Assembly (NCBI GenBank): GCA_903892995.1
Contig: CAITKP010000063.1
Span: 1 to 64,000, forward strand
Direction: 5' to 3'
Length of the DNA stretch: 64,000 nucleotides
Origin: an uncultured Campylobacterales bacterium
Lineage (GTDB): Bacteria > Campylobacterota > Campylobacteria > Campylobacterales > Sulfurimonadaceae
This document shows, piece after piece, positions 46,780-60,217 of this stretch. The stretch's first letter is position 1. Each line of letters starts with the position of its first letter. The notes under the pieces were generated by a model that ran no database searches, was not told the origin of the DNA, and saw only the letters and a program-made list of their open reading frames with translations. Made by a program: the position numbers and the translations under genes.

Positions 46780-48132
46780 TTAGGCATGAAACATATCTGC
46801 GTATAAACGTTTTGCCCATGCGTCAAGCAGCTTACCATTTTCAAGACCTACTTTGCCTTTCCACTGCTCAGACATCTCAACATTTGTGAATCCTGCAAGT
46901 GTTTTGCCTTCAAATTTATATTGCGCTCTGATTGAAATTGCACGTTCAGGTTTTGCGGATACTGATGAATAGCACACAGTCAGTGGAGATACCCAAGGAA
47001 TGTCATTTCCATCTTTTATTCTTTGTGCTATCAATTGACCAAGATAGCGCCCCTCAGTATTGGAAGTATTTCCAGATTTAGAGTAACCCATAGGACGAGC
47101 ATCACCTGAGACAAAGATATTTTTGTTTTCTACCCCGATTGCTTCATAGGTAAATGGGTCGATATTTCCCTCCATTTTGTTAAATGCAGTATCTTGTGCT
47201 ACACCACAAACTTCAAGAAGTTTTCCACCACGGACATGCGGATAAAATGCTCCATCAGCAAATGTATAACTCTCTTCCATTTCGCCAATAACAACTGTTT
47301 TTTTATCGAGATCGATACTTATGATTTTGGCATTTGGTACATATTGGATGTAATCTTTGTACATCTCGTTAAAGGCTGATTGGAATCCCTCTTTTTTGAT
47401 GGTGATCTCTGCATTCTCATCGAGTAGAAGCACTTTTCCTTTTATTTTGTGTTTTTTGAAATAATCAGCAATGAGACAAGCTCTTTCATAAGGAGCAGGA
47501 AGACATCTGTAGTTGCCACCTGGTACTGTGAGGATGAAGTTTCCACCTTTGAAGTTTTGTACCTTGTTTTTGAGTGTCATATGTTCACTGCCTGGAATAA
47601 ACGCAGCTGGATATTCCGTACGCAATCTTTGCTCTGTCACAAGATCGATTCCCCACGGAGCATAATCATACTCTATTCCAGGAGCAAGCACTAAGTAATC
47701 ATATTTAATGTCCCCATTGCTAGTTTTGAGAATTTTATTTGTTTTATCTACGCCTACTGCTGTTGCATTGAAAAAATTATATTGATTTTCACGAGCGGCT
47801 TGTAGATAGTCATGCGTTAAAAACTCCAAATCAACTTCGCCTACTACATAAAGGTTACTAACAGGACATGAAATAAACTCAGATCTTCGCTCAACTAAAA
47901 CGACATCAGCATTTGGAGCAAACTTTTTTGTGTATTTAGCAACAGCTAAACCTGACCAACCGCCACCTACAACAACGACTCTTGGGCCTGTTGCTTCTGG
48001 AAGTGGAGCTGGTGAGCCAACACCAACGGCTAAAACAGTTGTTTCTTTTGACTCTGATGCACTCACACTCGCAGCAAAAGTTGCAGCAACGGCACTTACT
48101 AAACTATATTTAAGTATGTCTCGACGGTTCAT
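46780..48132 (-). CDS. FccB/SoxF-like sulfide dehydrogenase flavoprotein
   Basis: About 450 aa with a twin-arginine signal (NRRDILKYSLVSAVAATFAAS), so exported folded. FAD-binding VVVGGGWSGLAVAKY is present. A Cys at FISCPVSN matches the residue that covalently anchors FAD in flavocytochrome c sulfide dehydrogenase. Two further Cys (NYRCLPAPYERA and TVCYS) match the redox disulfide. It likely oxidises sulfide or polysulfide. No cytochrome subunit is adjacent. Start is the ATG after AGGAGTT. Confidence 0.85.
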   Translation of the reverse strand: MNRRDILKYSLVSAVAATFAASVSASESKETTVLAVGVGSPAPLPEATGPRVVVVGGGWSGLAVAKYTKKFAPNADVVLVERRSEFISCPVSNLYVVGEVDLEFLTHDYLQAARENQYNFFNATAVGVDKTNKILKTSNGDIKYDYLVLAPGIEYDYAPWGIDLVTEQRLRTEYPAAFIPGSEHMTLKNKVQNFKGGNFILTVPGGNYRCLPAPYERACLIADYFKKHKIKGKVLLLDENAEITIKKEGFQSAFNEMYKDYIQYVPNAKIISIDLDKKTVVIGEMEESYTFADGAFYPHVRGGKLLEVCGVAQDTAFNKMEGNIDPFTYEAIGVENKNIFVSGDARPMGYSKSGNTSNTEGRYLGQLIAQRIKDGNDIPWVSPLTVCYSSVSAKPERAISIRAQYKFEGKTLAGFTNVEMSEQWKGKVGLENGKLLDAWAKRLYADMFHA

Positions 48133-48370
48133 AGTAACTCCTGATTTTTTATAAATTTTTAAAATATTACTCGACAATCTTATAACTATTACAATTAAAT
48201 GAAAGTTAGAAAATTTATCTACTCTAGGCTATCTTACAGGCAGAGAAGCATAAAGAGACTGCAATATGCTCATGAACAAAATTATCTTACATGTAATAGG
48301 ATAAATAGAAAAAATTTGCTAAAATTTGTTGAATAATATTTACAAAGAAACTAAATACTTGGAGGAAAGA

Positions 48371-50047
48371 GTGGAACTTATGAACCATATGACTATAAAA
48401 AGTCGATTACTGCTTTTAGCAGCTATTACCGGGTTGGGTGTTATTTTTATTGTGTTTATTGGATGGCGAGGTATAGAAACCATAGCTAAAGAAAATAATG
48501 AGCTTGGCGTTGTTCGTGTACCATCGCTAGAAGGTTTGATGGAGATGCGTCTTGGTTACAATGAAGTACTCATCCAGCAATATCGGGCAAGAGGATTTAT
48601 TGGTGATCCAGATCGTGCAAAAAAATGGGCTGATTGTGTTGAAAAAACAGATAAAGGTTGGGAGAGATATAAAAAAGGATATGATCTTTATGCTTCGCTA
48701 CCTCAAACTCCAGAAGAAGCCACTGAGTGGAAGCTTTATGAAAAATCCATGGCACAGTGGAAAGATATCAGTGATAAATATGAACATGATATAGTTGGAC
48801 CTTTGGCAAAACAGACCAAACAGATGAGTGATACTGTTATATATGATGAGATGACAAAGTTTACAGAAGGAAGTCGTAAGATTCGACGCGAGATGATAGA
48901 TCATATGAGCGTGATTTCTAAGATCAATGTAGATGTCGCAGATGCTTCTGTAAAAGAGGGACAAAAAAGCGCATCGACTGCAAAAACATTGATGCTGGCA
49001 CTGGGCATTGTTATATTTGTTATGGTTGTGACCTTAGCACTTGTGATTATGAACAGTATCGTTAAATCATTAAATATGATGAGTACTACTATGGAATATA
49101 TTGCTCAAAAACGTGATTTTACAGTTGATGTAGAAGCTAAAGGGGAAAATGAGATCGCTGATACATTAAGAAGGTTTAATATCCTCATTCAAGCTGTGAG
49201 AGAGGCATTTAGTATGGCTAAGAGCGCTTCTCATGAAAATATGTCAGTGGCTGCTGAGCTCAGCTCAACTTCACTTGCTATTGGAAAACGTGCAGAACAT
49301 GAGGCTCAAGTTGTCAGCAGTACGACAAATGAAGCGCAGATCATGTCAAGAGGTATTAATGAGTCTTTGGCAGATGTTGAAGTTACAAAAAAAGAGATTT
49401 TAGAAGCAAAACAAAGTTTAGATCTTGCAAGAAAACAGCTCAACACGATGACAGAGCAACTAAATCATACAGTTGAAGTAGAAGCAGAGATCAATCAGCG
49501 TCTTAACACGCTTAGCCATGATGCAGATCAAGTAAAAATAGTTTTGACAGTGATTGGAGATATTGCTGAGCAAACAAATCTTTTAGCATTAAATGCGGCC
49601 ATAGAAGCAGCGCGCGCTGGTGAGCATGGACGCGGTTTTGCCGTTGTTGCTGATGAGGTAAGAAAACTCGCAGAACGTACTCAAAAAAGTCTTCTTGAGA
49701 GTAACGCGACGATTAATATTATCGTTCAAGGGATCAATGATATTACTGATCAAATGAATGCAAATGCACAAAATATCGAGGCTTTAAGCGAGTCATCCGA
49801 GGAAGTGAATCTTCAGATGAACACTACTGTAAGCATTGTCGATAAAACTGCGATTACTGTTGATTCACTTGCAAAAGTTTCTATGGAATCTACAAAGAAA
49901 ACAGAATCTATCATCACTCAAATCGATTCGATCAATACACTTTCATCTTCAAATGCACGTAGTGTAGAAGAGATAGCATCTGCTGCTGAACATCTTCATG
50001 CAATGACTGAAAAGCTCAGTACACAGCTTGGAACATTTCGCACTTAA
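48371..50047 (+). CDS. Methyl-accepting chemotaxis protein
   Basis: About 558 aa. It has an N-terminal membrane helix, a periplasmic four-helix sensor domain (about 30-200), a second helix ([20 protein letters not shown]), HAMP, and the signalling hairpin tip [20 protein letters not shown]. The GTG at 48371 is preferred because GGAGG lies 5 nt upstream; the ATG at 48380 is the alternative. The 4HB sensor suggests a small-molecule ligand; which one is unknown. Confidence 0.9.
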
Positions 50048-50058
50048 ACTTAAATCTA

Positions 50059-50082
50059 CGCATTATCCTCTTGGATAGTGCG
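50059..50082. terminator. Hairpin between MCP and cheR
   Basis: CGCATTATCC and GGATAGTGCG form a 10-bp stem with one G-T between convergent genes. AGTTAAAAAA follows. Confidence 0.6.
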
Positions 50083-50084
50083 AG

Positions 50085-50873
50085 TTAAAAAAGGTCTGCA
50101 TGACCAAAAAATATCTCTCTTGTTGGTTCCTTTAGCATACTTTGTAAAATATTTTTAGCCTTGGATTTTGTTTCTTTATCAAAATATATCAGCATATTTC
50201 TAGAAAATATAAAATCAAACTTTCCAAGATTTAAAAACTCCGCATCAAAAATATTGATCTTTTTAAACTCAGTAGAGTTTTTTGCCTCCGCTTTGAGGAT
50301 ATAGGAGGATTCCTCTTTATAAAAATATTTTTCTCTTAACTCTTGAGAAAGGTTTTGAACATTTCTTTCATTATAAACAGCATTTTTAGCTTTTTCTATA
50401 ACCTGTCCATTGATATCTATACCTAAAATAGAGAATTTTTGAGCCGAAATATTGGCTTCTAAAAAGGCTATAACAATAGAGTAAACCTCTTCACCGCTCG
50501 CACAAGGAGCACATAAAATATGAACGGGAGTCTGTACGGTTTTGATATCTTCTACAAGTTTTTCTAATTGTTTATATTCTCGATTGAAATATGTTTCATT
50601 TACTGTGAGATAATCGATGAGCTCTTGTGTTGTGAGTTTATCTTTAACAATAAACTGAAGACACTCATTGAAATTTTTGTATCCTCTTTTCATGCAAAAA
50701 GCGCTCATTTTATTTTTTAAAATAGTAAGTTGCTTATCGAAATTGACACCTGTTTGCTCTTTAAAATAGCTTGCGATAGGTGTGACATCATCAAAAGAGT
50801 AGGATTCAAGTGTTGGTTGTATCTCACACTCTTCGCTCTCTTGGACTTTTTTCTTTTTAAAAAAATTAAACAT
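50085..50873 (-). CDS. cheR: Chemotaxis methyltransferase CheR
   Basis: About 262 aa. The SAM-binding segment ILCAPCASGEEVYSIVIAFL and the catalytic-domain end FIFSRNMLIYFDKETK are clear. The start at 50873 (MFNFFKKKK) is inferred from GGAGCAG upstream. It overlaps the cheB stop, so the two are coupled. The basic N-terminus KKKK is unusual. Confidence 0.9.
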   Translation of the reverse strand: MFNFFKKKKVQESEECEIQPTLESYSFDDVTPIASYFKEQTGVNFDKQLTILKNKMSAFCMKRGYKNFNECLQFIVKDKLTTQELIDYLTVNETYFNREYKQLEKLVEDIKTVQTPVHILCAPCASGEEVYSIVIAFLEANISAQKFSILGIDINGQVIEKAKNAVYNERNVQNLSQELREKYFYKEESSYILKAEAKNSTEFKKINIFDAEFLNLGKFDFIFSRNMLIYFDKETKSKAKNILQSMLKEPTREIFFGHADLF

Positions 50874-51438
50874 ATTCTGCTCCAAACTCTTTAATGGCAA
50901 CGATGATTTCATCGAGCGAGAGCACGTTTATATTTTCAACTACCTCTTTCGCTCGCATAGGCATACCATAAACGATAGCACTCTCTTGTGATTCAGCAAT
51001 GAGAGAGCTTGCACACTTAGAGAGATCTAGCATTCCGCTTGAACCATCATCACCGATCCCAGTTAAAATAATAGCCATAATTTTATAACCCCCGCATAGG
51101 ACAACGCCAGAGGAAAAAAGTTCACTGATATCTGGATTGTATTGGGAGTATTCATCCTCTTGGGCGCACAGAGTTATGGTCTCGTCGATCATCTTAAATT
51201 TACAATTTTTTTCACACACATAGATGGTTTTGTTTTTTAAATAACTTGTATCCTCTACTAAAGTGACAGTGAGTTTAGAAATCTCATTTAAACTTGCTGC
51301 AAAGCTTTTAAGATACTCTGCGCCCATGTGCTGCGCTATGACTATTGTGGCATTAAAAGTGGATGGCAGAGATGAGACTATTTTTTGAAGATGGCCAGGC
51401 CCTCCAGTTGAGGAACCAATAAGTATAATATTTTGCAA
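50866..51438 (-). CDS. cheB: Chemotaxis methylesterase CheB (no receiver domain)
   Basis: A 190-aa stand-alone catalytic domain. The triad is visible: Ser in GSSTGGPG, His in AQHMG and Asp in GIGDDGSSGM. The regulatory receiver domain of classical CheB is missing, as known in Campylobacter, so it cannot be switched on by CheA phosphorylation in the usual way. Confidence 0.92.
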   Translation of the reverse strand: MQNIILIGSSTGGPGHLQKIVSSLPSTFNATIVIAQHMGAEYLKSFAASLNEISKLTVTLVEDTSYLKNKTIYVCEKNCKFKMIDETITLCAQEDEYSQYNPDISELFSSGVVLCGGYKIMAIILTGIGDDGSSGMLDLSKCASSLIAESQESAIVYGMPMRAKEVVENINVLSLDEIIVAIKEFGAEYV

Positions 51439-51544
51439 AATAGAGTTCCACGTTTAGATTTTTTAAGAGTAACAATATTTTATCCTATATATTGCGCTTA
51501 GAGAATTTATTTGTTAAAATTCTAAAAAATCAAAGGAGTACCTT

Positions 51545-51676
51545 ATGTCAGATGATTATGATTACGATGATTCAGAATATGATTATGATGAAGAAAATGA
51601 AAGCGAAGATTATGATGACTACACTGCAATTGAGGATGAAGATTCGCAAGGTTTAGATGAAGATGATGAATACTAA
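51545..51676 (+). CDS. Tiny Asp/Glu/Tyr-rich protein
   Basis: A 43-aa ORF too short for the track, preceded by AAAGGAG 7 nt upstream of the ATG. By hand count 24 of 43 residues are Asp or Glu and 7 are Tyr; there is no Lys, Arg or His. It begins MSDDYDYDDSEYDYDEE. It is followed by a strong hairpin. Sits between cheB (divergent) and a PAS sensor. No family was recognised; it may be a DNA mimic, a metal (Ca or Fe) binder, or a regulator of a basic partner. Confidence 0.6.
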   Translation: MSDDYDYDDSEYDYDEENESEDYDDYTAIEDEDSQGLDEDDEY

Positions 51677-51706
51677 AACTTTGAGTCTCTAATCTCTTTT
51701 TTTTAA

Positions 51707-51733
51707 ATGAAACCCAGTGTCTATGGGTTTCAT
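51707..51733. terminator. Perfect 10-bp hairpin after the acidic ORF
   Basis: ATGAAACCCA and TGGGTTTCAT form a perfect stem with a 7-nt loop. A T8 run lies just upstream rather than downstream, so on the + strand it is an imperfect terminator. Confidence 0.55.
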
Positions 51734-51858
51734 CCTCCCCCAACTTTAATTCAATTTTTTCTTTACATGTAAGCTTTAAAAGCAATTTATATTTATTCTT
51801 TTCTATAACTGGAATATAATGTGGTACAATTAACAGAATATGTTGAAAAGGGAAATAA

Positions 51859-52242
51859 ATGAATGAGTATGTGTTAAAAAGCGATGACTTTCTAGTTTCA
51901 CAAACTGATGAGAAAGGTATTATCCTTTTTGCAAATGATGATTTTTGTAAAATAGCTGGATATACGCTAGAAGAGTTGGTTGGAAAACCTCATAATATTG
52001 TAAGACATCCAGATATGCCTCACGCTGCTTTTAAAGATCTTTGGGAAACTGTTAAACAAGATAAAATTTGGAATGGGTATGTTAAAAATAGTACAAAAGA
52101 TGGCGGGTATTACTGGGTATATGCTACAGTTTATCCAATGTATGACAAAGTGCGACAAGCAAAGACATACATATCATGCAGAAGAAAGCCTTCAAAATCA
52201 GAGATAGAAGAAGCCAAAAATCTGTATAAAAATTTAAAATAG
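51859..52242 (+). CDS. PAS-domain redox sensor (CetB/Aer-like)
   Basis: A 127-aa protein consisting of a single Aer-type PAS domain (FCKIAGYTLEELVGKPHNIVRHPDM and WNGYVKNSTKDGGYYWVYATVYP). Such domains bind FAD and sense redox state. The gene is 11 bp upstream of an MCP with no periplasmic sensor. The pair matches the split CetB/CetA energy-taxis system of Campylobacter. Confidence 0.82.
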   Translation: MNEYVLKSDDFLVSQTDEKGIILFANDDFCKIAGYTLEELVGKPHNIVRHPDMPHAAFKDLWETVKQDKIWNGYVKNSTKDGGYYWVYATVYPMYDKVRQAKTYISCRRKPSKSEIEEAKNLYKNLK

Positions 52243-52253
52243 GGTATGAGTAG

Positions 52254-53369
52254 ATGAATAGATTACAAAAAAACATAGTATTAGTTGGCGTTTTTGGAGT
52301 TTTACTTTTTTCATTTTTATTTACAGAGTCTTTCTTTGTGCTTGTGAGCTTAGCTGTTGTTGCATTTGTTGTGGCAATGGTACTTCAAAATTTGGACTCT
52401 TCTTCATCAAATACTGATAATATTGAGTTACTCAAAAAAATAGATGAGATGATAGATTTTGAAAGAAACAACATAAGTCTTAACGAAAATACAAACGATT
52501 TAGTAGAAAAAGAGTTGAATATACTGTTAAAAAAATATTCTAAAACTATTTTAGATGACACAAAAGTAGCTGGAGAGATGGTTCTTTTGGCAGATAAAGT
52601 TGCAAAAGGGCACTACTCTTGCAGAATTAGTTCAGATACAAAAACTCCATATGTACATGTTCTAAAAAATAGTATGAATAATATGATTGACTCTTCAGAA
52701 AAAAATCTTGACAACGCTATAACGACGCTCAAAAATTTTTCCAATGGCAATTTTAACTCTCGAAGCAGTGTACATGTAGAAGCAAAAATGGCTGAACTTT
52801 TAAACAATATTAACGCGTTGGGTCAATCTCTTCAAAATATGGAGCAAGAGAACAAAGACTCAAACCAACATATCATGGAATCCGCAGGTGCGCTAAATGA
52901 TACTATTGAGACTATCACAAATACAACTATTGTAGATTTTAAAAATATGATCAACAACATAGTTGAGCGTATCCATTTTGTTTCTCAAAAAGAGAATGAG
53001 ATGGTTGCAAATCTCCAAACGCTTGTAACGCATGCAAATGAAACGAAAGCGATACTACAAACGATCGGAGATATCGCAGATCAAACAAATCTTTTGGCAT
53101 TAAATGCGGCCATAGAAGCAGCGCGCGCAGGTGAGCATGGACGCGGATTTGCCGTTGTTGCAGATGAGGTTAGAAAACTCGCAGAACGTACTCAAAAAAG
53201 TCTTGCAGAGACTTCAGCAACCACAAATGTACTGATTCAGTCGATCTCTGACACTTCAGAGAGTCTCAACAAAAATGCAGATGATGTCAATGAAATCTCT
53301 GATGAAGTGGGTGAAGTAAGTTATAAAATGGATGAGATTATTGTAACTTTAAAAAATCTTACGAAATAA
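52254..53369 (+). CDS. Methyl-accepting protein lacking a sensor domain (CetA-like)
   Basis: A 371-aa protein. Two close N-terminal membrane helices (about 8-45) leave no periplasmic domain. A HAMP-like region and the conserved hairpin tip [23 protein letters not shown] follow. It probably transmits signals from the PAS protein. The hairpin-tip DNA is nearly identical to that of the MCP at 48371-50047. Confidence 0.82.
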
Positions 53370-53705
53370 ACTCTTACATGTAAGCATCTTCTTAATATTT
53401 AAAAAGTGCTTTACATGTAAACCCCTTCATTATATTTTTTTCCCACTAAAACAGCTCAACTCTTATCACATTACTATCACAAACAAAGATGAATTCATAA
53501 AAGCATAAAATTTCTTTTTCTGTTTGAAATGTGATAAATTTAAAATAGATCCCCCTGTTTTAGGGAATTAATGAGAATAAAATGTGATATTTAATGCTAG
53601 CTTATAGTTAGTATAATATTAATATTTATAATATTTAAAAACAATTAAGCTTGGTACGGTTAAACTTTTCGAGATTAAAAAATCTTATACTTAATGAAGG
53701 AGTCA
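53370..53705 (+). promoter_or_regulatory. Regulatory gap upstream of the flavoprotein-Rieske operon
   Basis: 336 bp without a gene. Two palindrome copies (53374-53383, 53411-53420) can pair as a terminator hairpin for the CetA-like gene. Four copies of TGTGATA occur (53464-53471 and 53475-53481 on minus; 53530-53536 and 53583-53589 on plus). A -10 like TATAAT lies at 53612-53617. This looks like an activator- or repressor-controlled promoter. Confidence 0.5.
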
Positions 53706-55079
53706 ATGATGGCACTATCAAGAAGAGACGCAATGAAATTTACTGGCCTAGCAGCAGTTACTGCGGCAGTAAGCGGTTATGCAAAAGATAACAAAGGAGG
53801 AGCAAATACTTCGGCAAAAGCTCCAGCGACAGGAATTTTACTTTCACCAGCTCCAATTCCAGCAGCAAAAGGACCACGTGTTGTGATCGTTGGTGCAGGA
53901 GCTTCAGGTTTGACTATTGCAAAATATGTAAAAAAAACAAACCCTAAAATTGATGTTGTATTAATGGATAAACGTTCTGTATTTATGTCTGGTTTTATCA
54001 GCAACTTGGTTGCAACAGGCGTTTTACCACTTGATTTTATAACTCATGATTTCTTAGAAGGTGCTCGTAATGGTAACTATACATTTTTACAAGCAACAGC
54101 ACATGAGATCGATCGTACATCTAAAATTGTTTATACAAATGAAGGTACGGTTAAATATGACGTACTTGTATTGGCTCCAGGGATCGATTATGATTACTCT
54201 AAATGGAGTAAAGGTGATGTTGAACTTGAAACAGCACTTAAAACGAAGTTTCCAGGTGCATTTATTGCAGGTAGTGAGACATTAACTCTAAAATCAAAAA
54301 TTGAAAATTTAGAGGGCGGTGTGTTTGTTCAAACAGTGCCAGGAGGAAACTACCGTTGTTTACCTGGACCATACGAAAGAAGCTGTTTGATCGCGGATTA
54401 TATGAAACGCAACAAGATCAAAGGTAAAGTACTCGTTCTTGATGAAAATGCAGATATCACGATTAAAGCACAAGGGTTCCACTCTGCTTTTGATACACTT
54501 TATAAAGATTATATCGAGTACGTTCCAAATACAATCATTACAAAAATCGATCCAGATAAACAGATTATCAGTACTGAAATGGATGGAGACCTTCATTTTG
54601 ATGATGCAGCGCTTTATAGTCACGTTCGTGGTAATAAAATACTTGAAATCGCTGGTGTTGCAAAAGATAGCGTATTTAACAAAGCTGAGGCAAACATCGA
54701 TCCATTTACATACCAAGTTATCGGCGATAAAAATGTATTTTGTACGGGTGACGTTCGTCCGATGGGATTCTCTAAATCAGCAAATACAGCTAATACAGAG
54801 GGTAAAATCGTTGCTAAAAATATCGTTAAATATCTTGCTGGCGAAGAGCTTGGTAGAAAAACATGGAGCTCACCGCTTACTGTTTGTTACTCAGCAGTTC
54901 AAGGTAAAGAGATGCGCGCTATCTCTGTTCATGCAGAATACGCATATGATGAAGCCAAAAAATCATTTGCCTTTGCAAATGCTGGAACAAGTGAAAAATG
55001 GGATGGCAAAGAGGGGCTTGATGGCGGTAAAGGTCTCGTTGAGTGGGGCAAAGGGATGTATAGAGAGTTCTTCAACTAA
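53706..55079 (+). CDS. FccB-like flavoprotein paralog lacking the FAD-anchoring Cys
   Basis: About 457 aa with a Tat signal (LSRRDAMKFTGLAAVTAAVSG). FAD-binding VVIVGAGASGLTIAKYVKK is present. The two disulfide Cys are kept (NYRCLPGPYERS and TVCYS). The Cys that binds FAD covalently in FCSD is replaced (FMSGFISN where the other copy has FISCPVSN), so FAD should be non-covalent. Followed by Rieske and cytochrome genes. Start at 53706 after AAGGAG. Confidence 0.82.
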   Translation: MMALSRRDAMKFTGLAAVTAAVSGYAKDNKGGANTSAKAPATGILLSPAPIPAAKGPRVVIVGAGASGLTIAKYVKKTNPKIDVVLMDKRSVFMSGFISNLVATGVLPLDFITHDFLEGARNGNYTFLQATAHEIDRTSKIVYTNEGTVKYDVLVLAPGIDYDYSKWSKGDVELETALKTKFPGAFIAGSETLTLKSKIENLEGGVFVQTVPGGNYRCLPGPYERSCLIADYMKRNKIKGKVLVLDENADITIKAQGFHSAFDTLYKDYIEYVPNTIITKIDPDKQIISTEMDGDLHFDDAALYSHVRGNKILEIAGVAKDSVFNKAEANIDPFTYQVIGDKNVFCTGDVRPMGFSKSANTANTEGKIVAKNIVKYLAGEELGRKTWSSPLTVCYSAVQGKEMRAISVHAEYAYDEAKKSFAFANAGTSEKWDGKEGLDGGKGLVEWGKGMYREFFN

Positions 55080-55088
55080 ACATCTGCA

Positions 55089-55153
55089 CTTGCATGGAGT
55101 ATTCCATGCAAGACAAATTTAAGAAATTTTGGATTCTTTAAATTTGTCTTGCA
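55089..55153 (+). promoter_or_regulatory. Overlapping alternative hairpins between flavoprotein and Rieske genes
   Basis: Hairpin 1 is CTTGCATGGA/TCCATGCAAG (55089-55112, perfect). Hairpin 2 pairs 55107-55125 with 55134-55153, about 19 bp with one bulge. They share TGCAAG, so only one can form. Possible attenuator, or an RNA stability element setting subunit ratio. Confidence 0.5.
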
Positions 55154-55204
55154 ATCTATCTTGTATGGCAAAAGATGATGAGAAGAAAATATAGGAATTA
55201 AAGA

Positions 55205-55933
55205 ATGGAACGTAGAAGTTTTCTAAAAATTATCGCAGCAGGAGCTACCATTGTAGCGGTGAACCCTTCATTGATTGGCGGTACTCTTTATGCTGCTGAT
55301 GGACGTATGTTTAAAGCATATGAAAAAGCGCAGATCGTAGATGCTGCAGGTGTGCCTATAAAGGCCTCTTCATTAGAAAAAGAGGTTACTTATATTTTTA
55401 ACTATCCCTTTAATTCTACACCTTGTATGTTAGTCAACTTACCTGAACCAACTGAGCAAGAAGTGAGTTTAAAATCAGAAATCGGTGAAGAGTATTTATG
55501 GAAAAGTGGCGTAGGTGCTAAGAGAACGATAGTCGCATATAGTGCTATTTGCGCTCATCAATTGACACATCCTACACCTAATGATAGTTTTATCAAATAT
55601 GTTCCTAAAGCAACACCGACAATGGCATACGCAAAAAGTGGAATCATAGTTTGTTCATCACATCTTTCAGCATATGATGCGGGAGCTGGTGCTAAAGTGT
55701 TATCTGGTGCAGCACTGCAACCTCTTGCAGCAGTTGTTTTAGAAGTCGCGGCAGATGATACGATCTGGGCAGTTGGCGTACTTGGATCAGATAAATTTCA
55801 AGACTATTTCAAGGCGTTTAAACCTGAATTAAAAGAGTTTTATGGCGGAGTAGCAGAGGCAAAAACATTAGTCTCTATCTCTGCAAAAACAGTGAAATTG
55901 ACAGAGTATTCTAAAGAGATTATTCAATATTAA
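55205..55933 (+). CDS. Tat-exported Rieske-type iron-sulfur protein
   Basis: A 242-aa protein with a Tat signal (ERRSFLKIIAAGATIVA). The ligand pattern is C-x-H (ICAHQ) and C-x-x-H (VCSSH), as in Rieske [2Fe-2S] proteins. The loop Cys that make the disulfide in bc1 Rieske proteins are absent, and the spacing between the two boxes is long (about 31 residues). It probably carries electrons between the flavoprotein and the cytochrome encoded on either side. Confidence 0.75.
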   Translation: MERRSFLKIIAAGATIVAVNPSLIGGTLYAADGRMFKAYEKAQIVDAAGVPIKASSLEKEVTYIFNYPFNSTPCMLVNLPEPTEQEVSLKSEIGEEYLWKSGVGAKRTIVAYSAICAHQLTHPTPNDSFIKYVPKATPTMAYAKSGIIVCSSHLSAYDAGAGAKVLSGAALQPLAAVVLEVAADDTIWAVGVLGSDKFQDYFKAFKPELKEFYGGVAEAKTLVSISAKTVKLTEYSKEIIQY

Positions 55934-55944
55934 AAGGGAGTATT

Positions 55945-56358
55945 ATGAAAAAATTAGTTTCGGCACTTGCGCTTGTATCTATTTTAGCAGTTTCATCGCA
56001 AGCTGCAAAACAAGTAGATACTCGTTTGGAACTTATGAAAGATATGCGCACAATGATGGATGCAATGGAGCAAATTCAACGTGGCGGTTTATACAGTTCG
56101 ACAGATGATATGAAAGTAGGGGTTAAAAAACTTCAGGGAACACTCAAATCTTTAGAGAGTGAAAATGTAAAAGCTATCTTGCCTAAAGATCAGGTTTACG
56201 CTTATAAGTTTGCTCAAAAAACTGCTCAAATGCTTCGTATGTACTCAGATGATATGGTTACATCTATAGACGCAGGTAAAATGGATAATGCGCTAGATGA
56301 TTACACGCAACTACTCAAACAGTGTACGTCATGCCATATCCGCATTCGTAACTGGTAA
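55945..56358 (+). CDS. Class II-type monoheme cytochrome c
   Basis: A 137-aa protein with a Sec signal (KKLVSALALVSILAVSSQA). The single heme motif CTSCH lies near the C-terminus, as in cytochrome c-prime/c556 four-helix bundles. A Met-rich first helix (KDMRTMMDAMEQ) may supply a sixth ligand. It lies 11 bp after the Rieske gene and is the likely electron acceptor. Confidence 0.85.
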   Translation: MKKLVSALALVSILAVSSQAAKQVDTRLELMKDMRTMMDAMEQIQRGGLYSSTDDMKVGVKKLQGTLKSLESENVKAILPKDQVYAYKFAQKTAQMLRMYSDDMVTSIDAGKMDNALDDYTQLLKQCTSCHIRIRNW

Positions 56359-59029: not shown

Positions 59030-60217
59030 ATGAGAGTTTTGATATTTGTAGCACTGTTGATTTCATTTGTTTATTCAGCTGAGGTTGTGAAAGTTGAAGA
59101 GAAATATCAAGATTCTACAAAATGTCAGGCTTGTCATAATCACCTTGTAAAAGATTGGCAACACTCATGGCATGCACGCTCTTATGAAAAAAATGATGAG
59201 TATTTTCGTGCATCTTTAGAGTATGTCAGTAAAAAATCCCACAAAAGTCTTAATGCAGTTAAAGTTGAGTGTGCAACATGTCACAATCCCCGCATCTCAG
59301 TTACCAGCACAAGCAAAGCGTATGAAATTGACGCTGTTTTAGGGCTCGATAAAAACTCAAAAGTCAATAAAGCAGTTAATGATACGAGTATCAGCGAGGG
59401 GATCAACTGCGTTGTTTGTCACAACATAGACAAAATTCATGATAATCTTGATGCTTCAAAAAGAGGAATGGATAGGGTTACTTGGCTGAAATCTGGTGTG
59501 ATGAGCGGACCGTTTGATGATGCAACTTCACCTTACCATAAAACAGAAGCCAGAGATTTTATGGATAAAAATCCAAATAAGCTCTGTTTTGTGTGTCATG
59601 CAAATGATCATACAATCAAAGGCGATATGTTTATCAATATGGAAGCTGAGTATAAAGACAATACTCAAAAATGTGTTGTATGTCATATGAGCACTAAGAA
59701 AGAGCTTTATGCTGCTACGCTTAGAATCGATCATGGAAAACCAAAAGCACGCCAGATTAGAGAGCATGGATTTAGCGGAGCGCACACCGCATCAATGTGG
59801 AAAGATGCCTTACATGTAAGTACAAAAGTGGAGGGTGGTGATCTTGTTATTACACTAAAAAATGATCTTCCACACAATCTTCCAAGTGGATTTGGCTCAC
59901 GCGAAATTGTGCTAGATGTTGAGTACACGAGTGCAGCGAAAGTAGTTTCAAAAGAGTCTGTGTCGTTAACGAGACACTATCTCAATAAATACAAAAAACC
60001 AACAATCGCACATACATCTGAGACATCCTCAGCAGATGAATCGGTTCCAGCCAAGGGTGAAAAAACTATTAGAGTGAAGTTAAACAAAAGTGCCAATGGT
60101 GCGAATGTAGCTGTTTCTTATAGATTGGTGAACGATGAAGTGAGAGGTCTGCTTGAGTTAAAAGAGCCGATCTGGTCGCAAAAGATGGTGATTTTTAAAG
60201 GTGCTGTAAAGTTCTAA
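59030..60217 (+). CDS. Periplasmic pentaheme cytochrome c
   Basis: A 395-aa protein with a signal peptide (VLIFVALLISFVYSA). Five CxxCH motifs occur (CQACH, CATCH, CVVCH, CFVCH, CVVCH), all in the first 230 residues. The C-terminal 150 residues look like a beta-rich domain without heme. It resembles cytochrome c554-type multiheme proteins; no hydroxylamine oxidoreductase gene is adjacent. Electron partners are unknown. The palindrome at 59810 encodes LHVS. Confidence 0.85.
   Translation: MRVLIFVALLISFVYSAEVVKVEEKYQDSTKCQACHNHLVKDWQHSWHARSYEKNDEYFRASLEYVSKKSHKSLNAVKVECATCHNPRISVTSTSKAYEIDAVLGLDKNSKVNKAVNDTSISEGINCVVCHNIDKIHDNLDASKRGMDRVTWLKSGVMSGPFDDATSPYHKTEARDFMDKNPNKLCFVCHANDHTIKGDMFINMEAEYKDNTQKCVVCHMSTKKELYAATLRIDHGKPKARQIREHGFSGAHTASMWKDALHVSTKVEGGDLVITLKNDLPHNLPSGFGSREIVLDVEYTSAAKVVSKESVSLTRHYLNKYKKPTIAHTSETSSADESVPAKGEKTIRVKLNKSANGANVAVSYRLVNDEVRGLLELKEPIWSQKMVIFKGAVKF

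Follow-up and report, generated by a model that had tools for sequence, protein, structure and literature searches.

A conserved operon for an FccB-like flavoprotein, a Rieske protein and a cytochrome in Campylobacterota, a candidate periplasmic route of sulfide oxidation

Introduction

A set of three genes encoding an FccB-like flavoprotein, a Rieske protein and a c-type cytochrome recurs in Campylobacterota as a real, conserved and under-described operon, which is a variant of FccB/SoxF-type sulfide oxidation. Judging from sequences, structure models and analogy with characterised enzymes, these genes probably encode a periplasmic dehydrogenase of sulfide or sulfane sulfur that uses the Rieske protein as an electron relay. 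Among the sulfur oxidisers of vents, caves and groundwater the Campylobacterota are prominent, and the conserved set is a sign of an electron route in microbial sulfur oxidation that has been little studied.

The window analysed here is a stretch of 64,000 nucleotides from a Sulfuricurvum-like member of the Campylobacterota, whose genome holds soxXYZAB and soxCDYZ clusters, both on other contigs. Its first-pass annotation had placed three genes in a row, and the corresponding open reading frames are present on the + strand, each preceded by a Shine-Dalgarno-like sequence in the raw sequence: the flavoprotein gene (53706/53709-55079), the Rieske gene (55205-55933) and, 11 nt downstream of the latter, the cytochrome gene (55945-56358). 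The longest flavoprotein reading frame begins at 53694; since homologs begin at its residue 6 (ATG at 53709) and the Shine-Dalgarno-like AAGGAG lies at 53697-53702 (+), the start at 53706 that had been annotated is better than that of the longest frame.

Conservation and linkage

Whether the three families travel together was among the checks that the first-pass annotation had proposed, and the gene order is conserved across many Campylobacteria genomes. In our survey of 298 genomes a Rieske ortholog occurs in 25, after exclusion of four weaker matches (E ~5e-4), all from a single genus of family f10, as other Rieske proteins. FccB was found in 49 of the 298 genomes and all 25 Rieske carriers fall within these 49, for which the hypergeometric p of 4e-23 overstates independence, as the genomes are related. 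A tblastn search placed an FccB gene within 4 kb of the Rieske gene, in the same orientation, at 25/25 other survey loci and at 77/80 loci of a second collection, which has some contigs in common with the survey set; the FccB gene of L054 was found by the same tblastn search. The three loci without FccB in the second collection are L092, which ends at a contig edge, and L070 and L101, both with full flanks. A strain-specific arrangement is thus ruled out by the 25 carrier genomes and the neighbouring FccB in both collections, and chance adjacency by the linkage statistics, the linkage being far beyond chance.

The cytochrome gene is a less constant member, found by tblastn beside the Rieske gene in 16/25 survey loci and 64/80 loci of the second collection; about a third and a fifth of these loci, respectively, hold no recognisable cytochrome by the Rieske gene. 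Gaps between the Rieske and cytochrome genes are mostly 0-14 nt across loci. The best matches of the window's Rieske protein, at 84-88% identity, come from Sulfuricurvum metagenome-assembled genomes, and none of the plasmids searched for Rieske relatives carries one. A few loci are unusual in their own right: L091 appears to hold both versions of the module (types A and C, described below) in tandem, the type A version with SoxYZ; genome G250 has two Rieske copies (L035, L038) at contig ends, which may be in tandem; and L065, a 4.4 kb contig labelled Petrimonas (Bacteroidota), carries a Sulfuricurvum-type module and is probably a binning error.

Flavoprotein

The annotation of the first gene product as a Tat-exported FccB-like flavoprotein is well founded. 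It matches Pfam FCSD_central (E 9e-27; 93.9 bits, cut-off 27) and the Tat model TIGR01409 (18.3 bits, cut-off 16.7), and its best PDB match is the FccB of A. vinosum (1fcd, E 2e-41). The catalytic pair, Cys161 and Cys337 of A. vinosum, is kept in 95/95 full-length flavoproteins, that of the window included; the latter belongs to the SoxF/FccB superfamily. The FCSD-flav_bind domain is not detectable in the window protein. Cys42 of A. vinosum FccB attaches FAD covalently, and the corresponding position is Gly in the window protein and in 15 other type A proteins, 16 of the 27 flavoproteins nearest the window type, the rest having Cys; this loss touches the subtype and the mode of FAD binding rather than membership of the superfamily.

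Two flavoprotein types, about 30% identical, pair with the Rieske protein, namely type A, to which the window's belongs, and type C. On the Rieske tree the flavoprotein type switches six times, at least four of the switches being forced by well-supported branches. Because the flavoprotein type has switched beside a retained Rieske gene, the Rieske protein, usually together with its cytochrome, is the constant core around changing flavoproteins. The same switches beside the same Rieske could also be read more simply, as those of an ordinary Fcc/SoxF-type sulfide dehydrogenase for which Rieske and cytochrome are one of several acceptors with no new function, a reading that agrees with the plain FccB homology and with an Aquificota flavoprotein that works alone (PMC3504083). 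We nevertheless regard it as unlikely, for every genome of the survey with the Rieske ortholog also has FccB, and a pairing kept through at least four switches of the flavoprotein type suggests a specific need.

Rieske protein and cytochrome

The second product, annotated at first pass as a Tat-exported Rieske-type protein, has the signal RRSFLK with its twin arginines, a Rieske fold in its structure model and the ligands C116-x-H118...C150-x2-H153, which are invariant across 22 aligned orthologs. It is without disulfide cysteines. Pfam gave no match for this protein, and its NCBIfam matches are below cut-off (soxL2, 88.8 vs 582; AioB TIGR02694, 46.2 vs 95.65 bits), so that by the curated TIGR02694 cut-off it falls outside AioB, the Rieske subunit of arsenite oxidase. 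PDB sequence matches are to Sulfolobus SoxF and AioB, and the predicted fold (model pLDDT 84) is closest to AioB (E 7e-8), followed by Sulfolobus SoxF 1jm1 (E 5e-7), both with a Foldseek probability of 1.00. We therefore call it AioB-like.

For the third product a Sec-exported class II cytochrome c had been annotated. A Sec-type leader and a single heme site, CTSCH, at the C-terminus bear out most of this, and the predicted model is a four-helix bundle with cytochromes b562 and c' as its nearest matches, thus combining in the model the C-terminal CxxCH and the bundle that mark class II (c'/c556). The class assignment is likely rather than proven, because the Pfam Cytochrom_C_2 score is sub-threshold (20.8 vs 26.5) and no structure match falls below E 0.01. 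This c'-like monoheme protein with its C-terminal CxxCH is the cytochrome adjoining the flavoprotein-Rieske pair, and an FccA-type cytochrome gene was not found in that place.

SoxYZ and the intercistronic hairpin

As a conserved unit the annotated three-gene module stands, but it is incomplete as a description of the family, as most type A operons also carry dedicated SoxYZ genes, which the operon of the window lacks. SoxYZ is present in 23/37 type A loci vs 0/65 type C loci, and in the loci that were checked with Pfam both SoxY and SoxZ were confirmed. In the loci most closely related to the window (L060, L062-L065, L068) the genes run fccB-soxY-soxZ-rieske-cytC; L061 has soxZ too (soxYZ being listed for L060-L065 and L068), and L066 and L067 are without soxYZ, like the window. 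As the window and every type C operon do without it, SoxYZ is no general requirement of the module.

In the window the site of soxY and soxZ is occupied by a gap of 125 nt between fccB and the Rieske gene (55080-55204). Flank alignments match the left part of this gap, including a hairpin, to the fccB-soxY spacer of the relatives and the sequence to the right of it to the start of their Rieske gene, and as flanks and hairpin thus align to both sides of the relatives' soxYZ, the sequence fits a loss of soxYZ in place. The hairpin itself, a conserved RNA element after fccB (55107-55152, +), is 45-46 nt long and 87-89% identical in L060 and L064; its consensus fold shows compensatory changes in 9 of 19 pairs, and its single-sequence z is -3.0. 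It is conserved in Sulfuricurvum-type operons, and a search of Rfam gave no credible match for it. A short upstream stem (55089-55112) overlaps its 5' arm through a common GCAAG arm, and the two structures may compete (region 55088-55152).

The C-termini of the module's SoxY proteins read GGCG, GGCS or similar, which is the reactive-cysteine arm of the sulfur carrier. On the SoxY tree, which has long branches, all 17 module sequences form one clade (support 99/98), apart from the SoxY of soxXYZAB and soxCDYZ clusters. In five genomes (G031, G053, G057, G139, G250) the module's SoxY is the only one found, and neither SoxB nor SoxC is present there above cut-off.

A dedicated SoxYZ raises the question of whether the module acts as a sulfane dehydrogenase on SoxYZ-bound sulfane sulfur, taking the place of SoxCD so that thiosulfate or sulfide is carried beyond S0. 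An FccB enzyme withdraws two electrons from sulfide, whereas oxidation of sulfane sulfur to the sulfonate level takes six, and SoxCD uses molybdenum, a chemistry that counts against such a replacement. SoxC is missing from 8/17 SoxB-bearing module carriers vs 0/8 SoxB-bearing non-carriers of the window's family (Fisher p 0.026, a value that counts related genomes as independent), and published Sulfuricurvum genomes are without soxCD (PMC4288042). The genome of the window, however, has both soxXYZAB and soxCDYZ, and five carriers with SoxYZ have no SoxB for the release of sulfate. The replacement of SoxCD thus has modest support, weakened by shared ancestry and by the chemistry, and we hold it to be improbable.

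The absence of SoxYZ from type C operons bears on yet another reading, in which Rieske and cytochrome would be fed by some other donor, quinol or else SoxYZ itself, while the flavoprotein would work in the reductive or regenerating direction, as has been considered for the way SoxF stimulates the Sox system. A precedent may be seen in Chlorobaculum tepidum, where, going by the title of a reference cited in PMC3504083, a soxF-encoded flavoprotein stimulates thiosulfate oxidation. Beside the module, however, there is no conserved gene for a membrane cytochrome b or a quinone site, and the Rieske protein resembles AioB, not the Rieske proteins of bc1 complexes, all of which leaves this reading very doubtful to us.

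Proposed electron route

In the dehydrogenase with a Rieske relay that we favour, the exported flavoprotein would, by homology, oxidise sulfide or thiol-bound sulfane sulfur at its Cys-Cys disulfide, which adjoins FAD. The reduced FAD would then pass single electrons to the exported Rieske protein, as the fold and the obligate gene pairing suggest, with the Rieske protein standing in for the cytochrome subunit FccA and acting like AioB in arsenite oxidase; it would in turn presumably contact and reduce the c'-like monoheme cytochrome, from which electrons would enter the respiratory chain. In type A operons the gene content suggests the operon's own SoxYZ as sulfur acceptor. Because this pair is absent from the window strain, the sulfur there might be taken up by either of the genome's two other SoxYZ pairs or be released as polysulfide or S0. 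A chain from a sulfur compound through FAD and [2Fe-2S] to heme had been proposed in the first-pass annotation, and it is a reasonable inference, because both catalytic cysteines are kept and the Rieske protein shares its fold with AioB. Chemically the relay can be dispensed with, given that horse cytochrome c is reduced by the Aquificota enzyme DhsU1 in the absence of a Rieske protein (PMC3504083).

More tentatively, one may conceive of a third, autonomous Sox branch, possible though rather speculative, in which FccB loads or oxidises sulfur on the dedicated SoxYZ and Rieske and cytochrome carry the electrons, without SoxB or SoxCD and with flavoproteins interchangeable on one electron-transfer core. 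For the handling of sulfane sulfur in strains without soxCD or soxB, the FccB-Rieske-cytochrome unit with its own SoxYZ clade is a concrete candidate route.

Neighbouring genes

A second FccB-type flavoprotein is encoded at 46780-48177 (-); it has no Rieske neighbour, keeps the FAD-linking cysteine and is about 71% identical to the Rieske-paired flavoprotein of L049. Between the two flavoprotein genes (48326-53369) lie genes for two methyl-accepting chemotaxis proteins, a PAS protein, CheR and CheB, possibly serving energy or redox taxis linked to sulfur. A multiheme cytochrome gene (59030-60217) was considered as a part of the module and dropped, being also present in module-free relatives and missing from several carriers. 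It lies beside hemB and the next gene, and this block adjoins the module in several families (L048, L055, L126).

Comparison with known systems

The first-pass annotation knew of no described enzyme with this combination, which has to be corrected in one respect: a 2012 study of the Sulfurihydrogenibium-related LSSB of the Aquificota had described a cluster that joins dhsU1, dhsU2 and sox genes with genes for a Rieske and a cytochrome-like protein, and recombinant DhsU1 is a monomeric, active sulfide dehydrogenase that oxidises sulfide with cytochrome c (PMC3504083). Compared through its published description (PMC3504083), the LSSB cluster likewise has a Tat-exported monomeric FccB-type flavoprotein by Rieske, cytochrome-like and sox genes, but two flavoprotein genes flank its Rieske gene and its sox genes are soxXYZAB, whereas the module described here has a single flavoprotein and a c'-like cytochrome, and its SoxYZ, where present, is of a third clade. 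As for the Campylobacterota operon, we found in the open-licence literature no description of it and no role assigned to its Rieske protein. A 2015 review knew of no Sulfurimonas genome with Fcc at that time (PMC4584964), and Campylobacterota papers, in the portions available to us, list Fcc copies without Rieske partners (PMC12403661, PMC10066037, PMC4288042), the flavoprotein there being named Fcc and the rest of the unit omitted. The non-canonical Fcc of 'Sulfurimonas pluma' likewise comes from the Campylobacterota and has been proposed to take over sulfide oxidation from Sqr; it differs in that the main text makes no mention of a Rieske or SoxYZ partner (PMC10066037).

With FccAB of A. vinosum (1fcd) the module shares the FccB fold family, the central domain and the catalytic cysteine pair, yet a Rieske gene stands where an FccA-type cytochrome would adjoin, and in the window protein Cys42 is missing and no FCSD-flav_bind domain is detectable. 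SoxF/SoxEF of Paracoccus and Chlorobaculum is likewise an FccB-type flavoprotein tied to the Sox system, but in the module a Rieske protein and a c'-like cytochrome replace its cytochrome partner and the SoxYZ clade is a separate one. In the module a Rieske protein would serve a flavin-dependent sulfide dehydrogenase, the flavoprotein being swapped repeatedly around a fixed electron-transfer core. For that Rieske protein the best fold match is AioB, a subunit that docks with cytochrome c552 (entry 8ed4) and that likewise relays electrons from a catalytic subunit to cytochrome c; unlike AioB, the module's Rieske protein has a flavoprotein rather than the molybdenum protein AioA as its partner, is about 26% identical to AioB, has a longer stretch between its ligand motifs and scores below the curated cut-off of that family.
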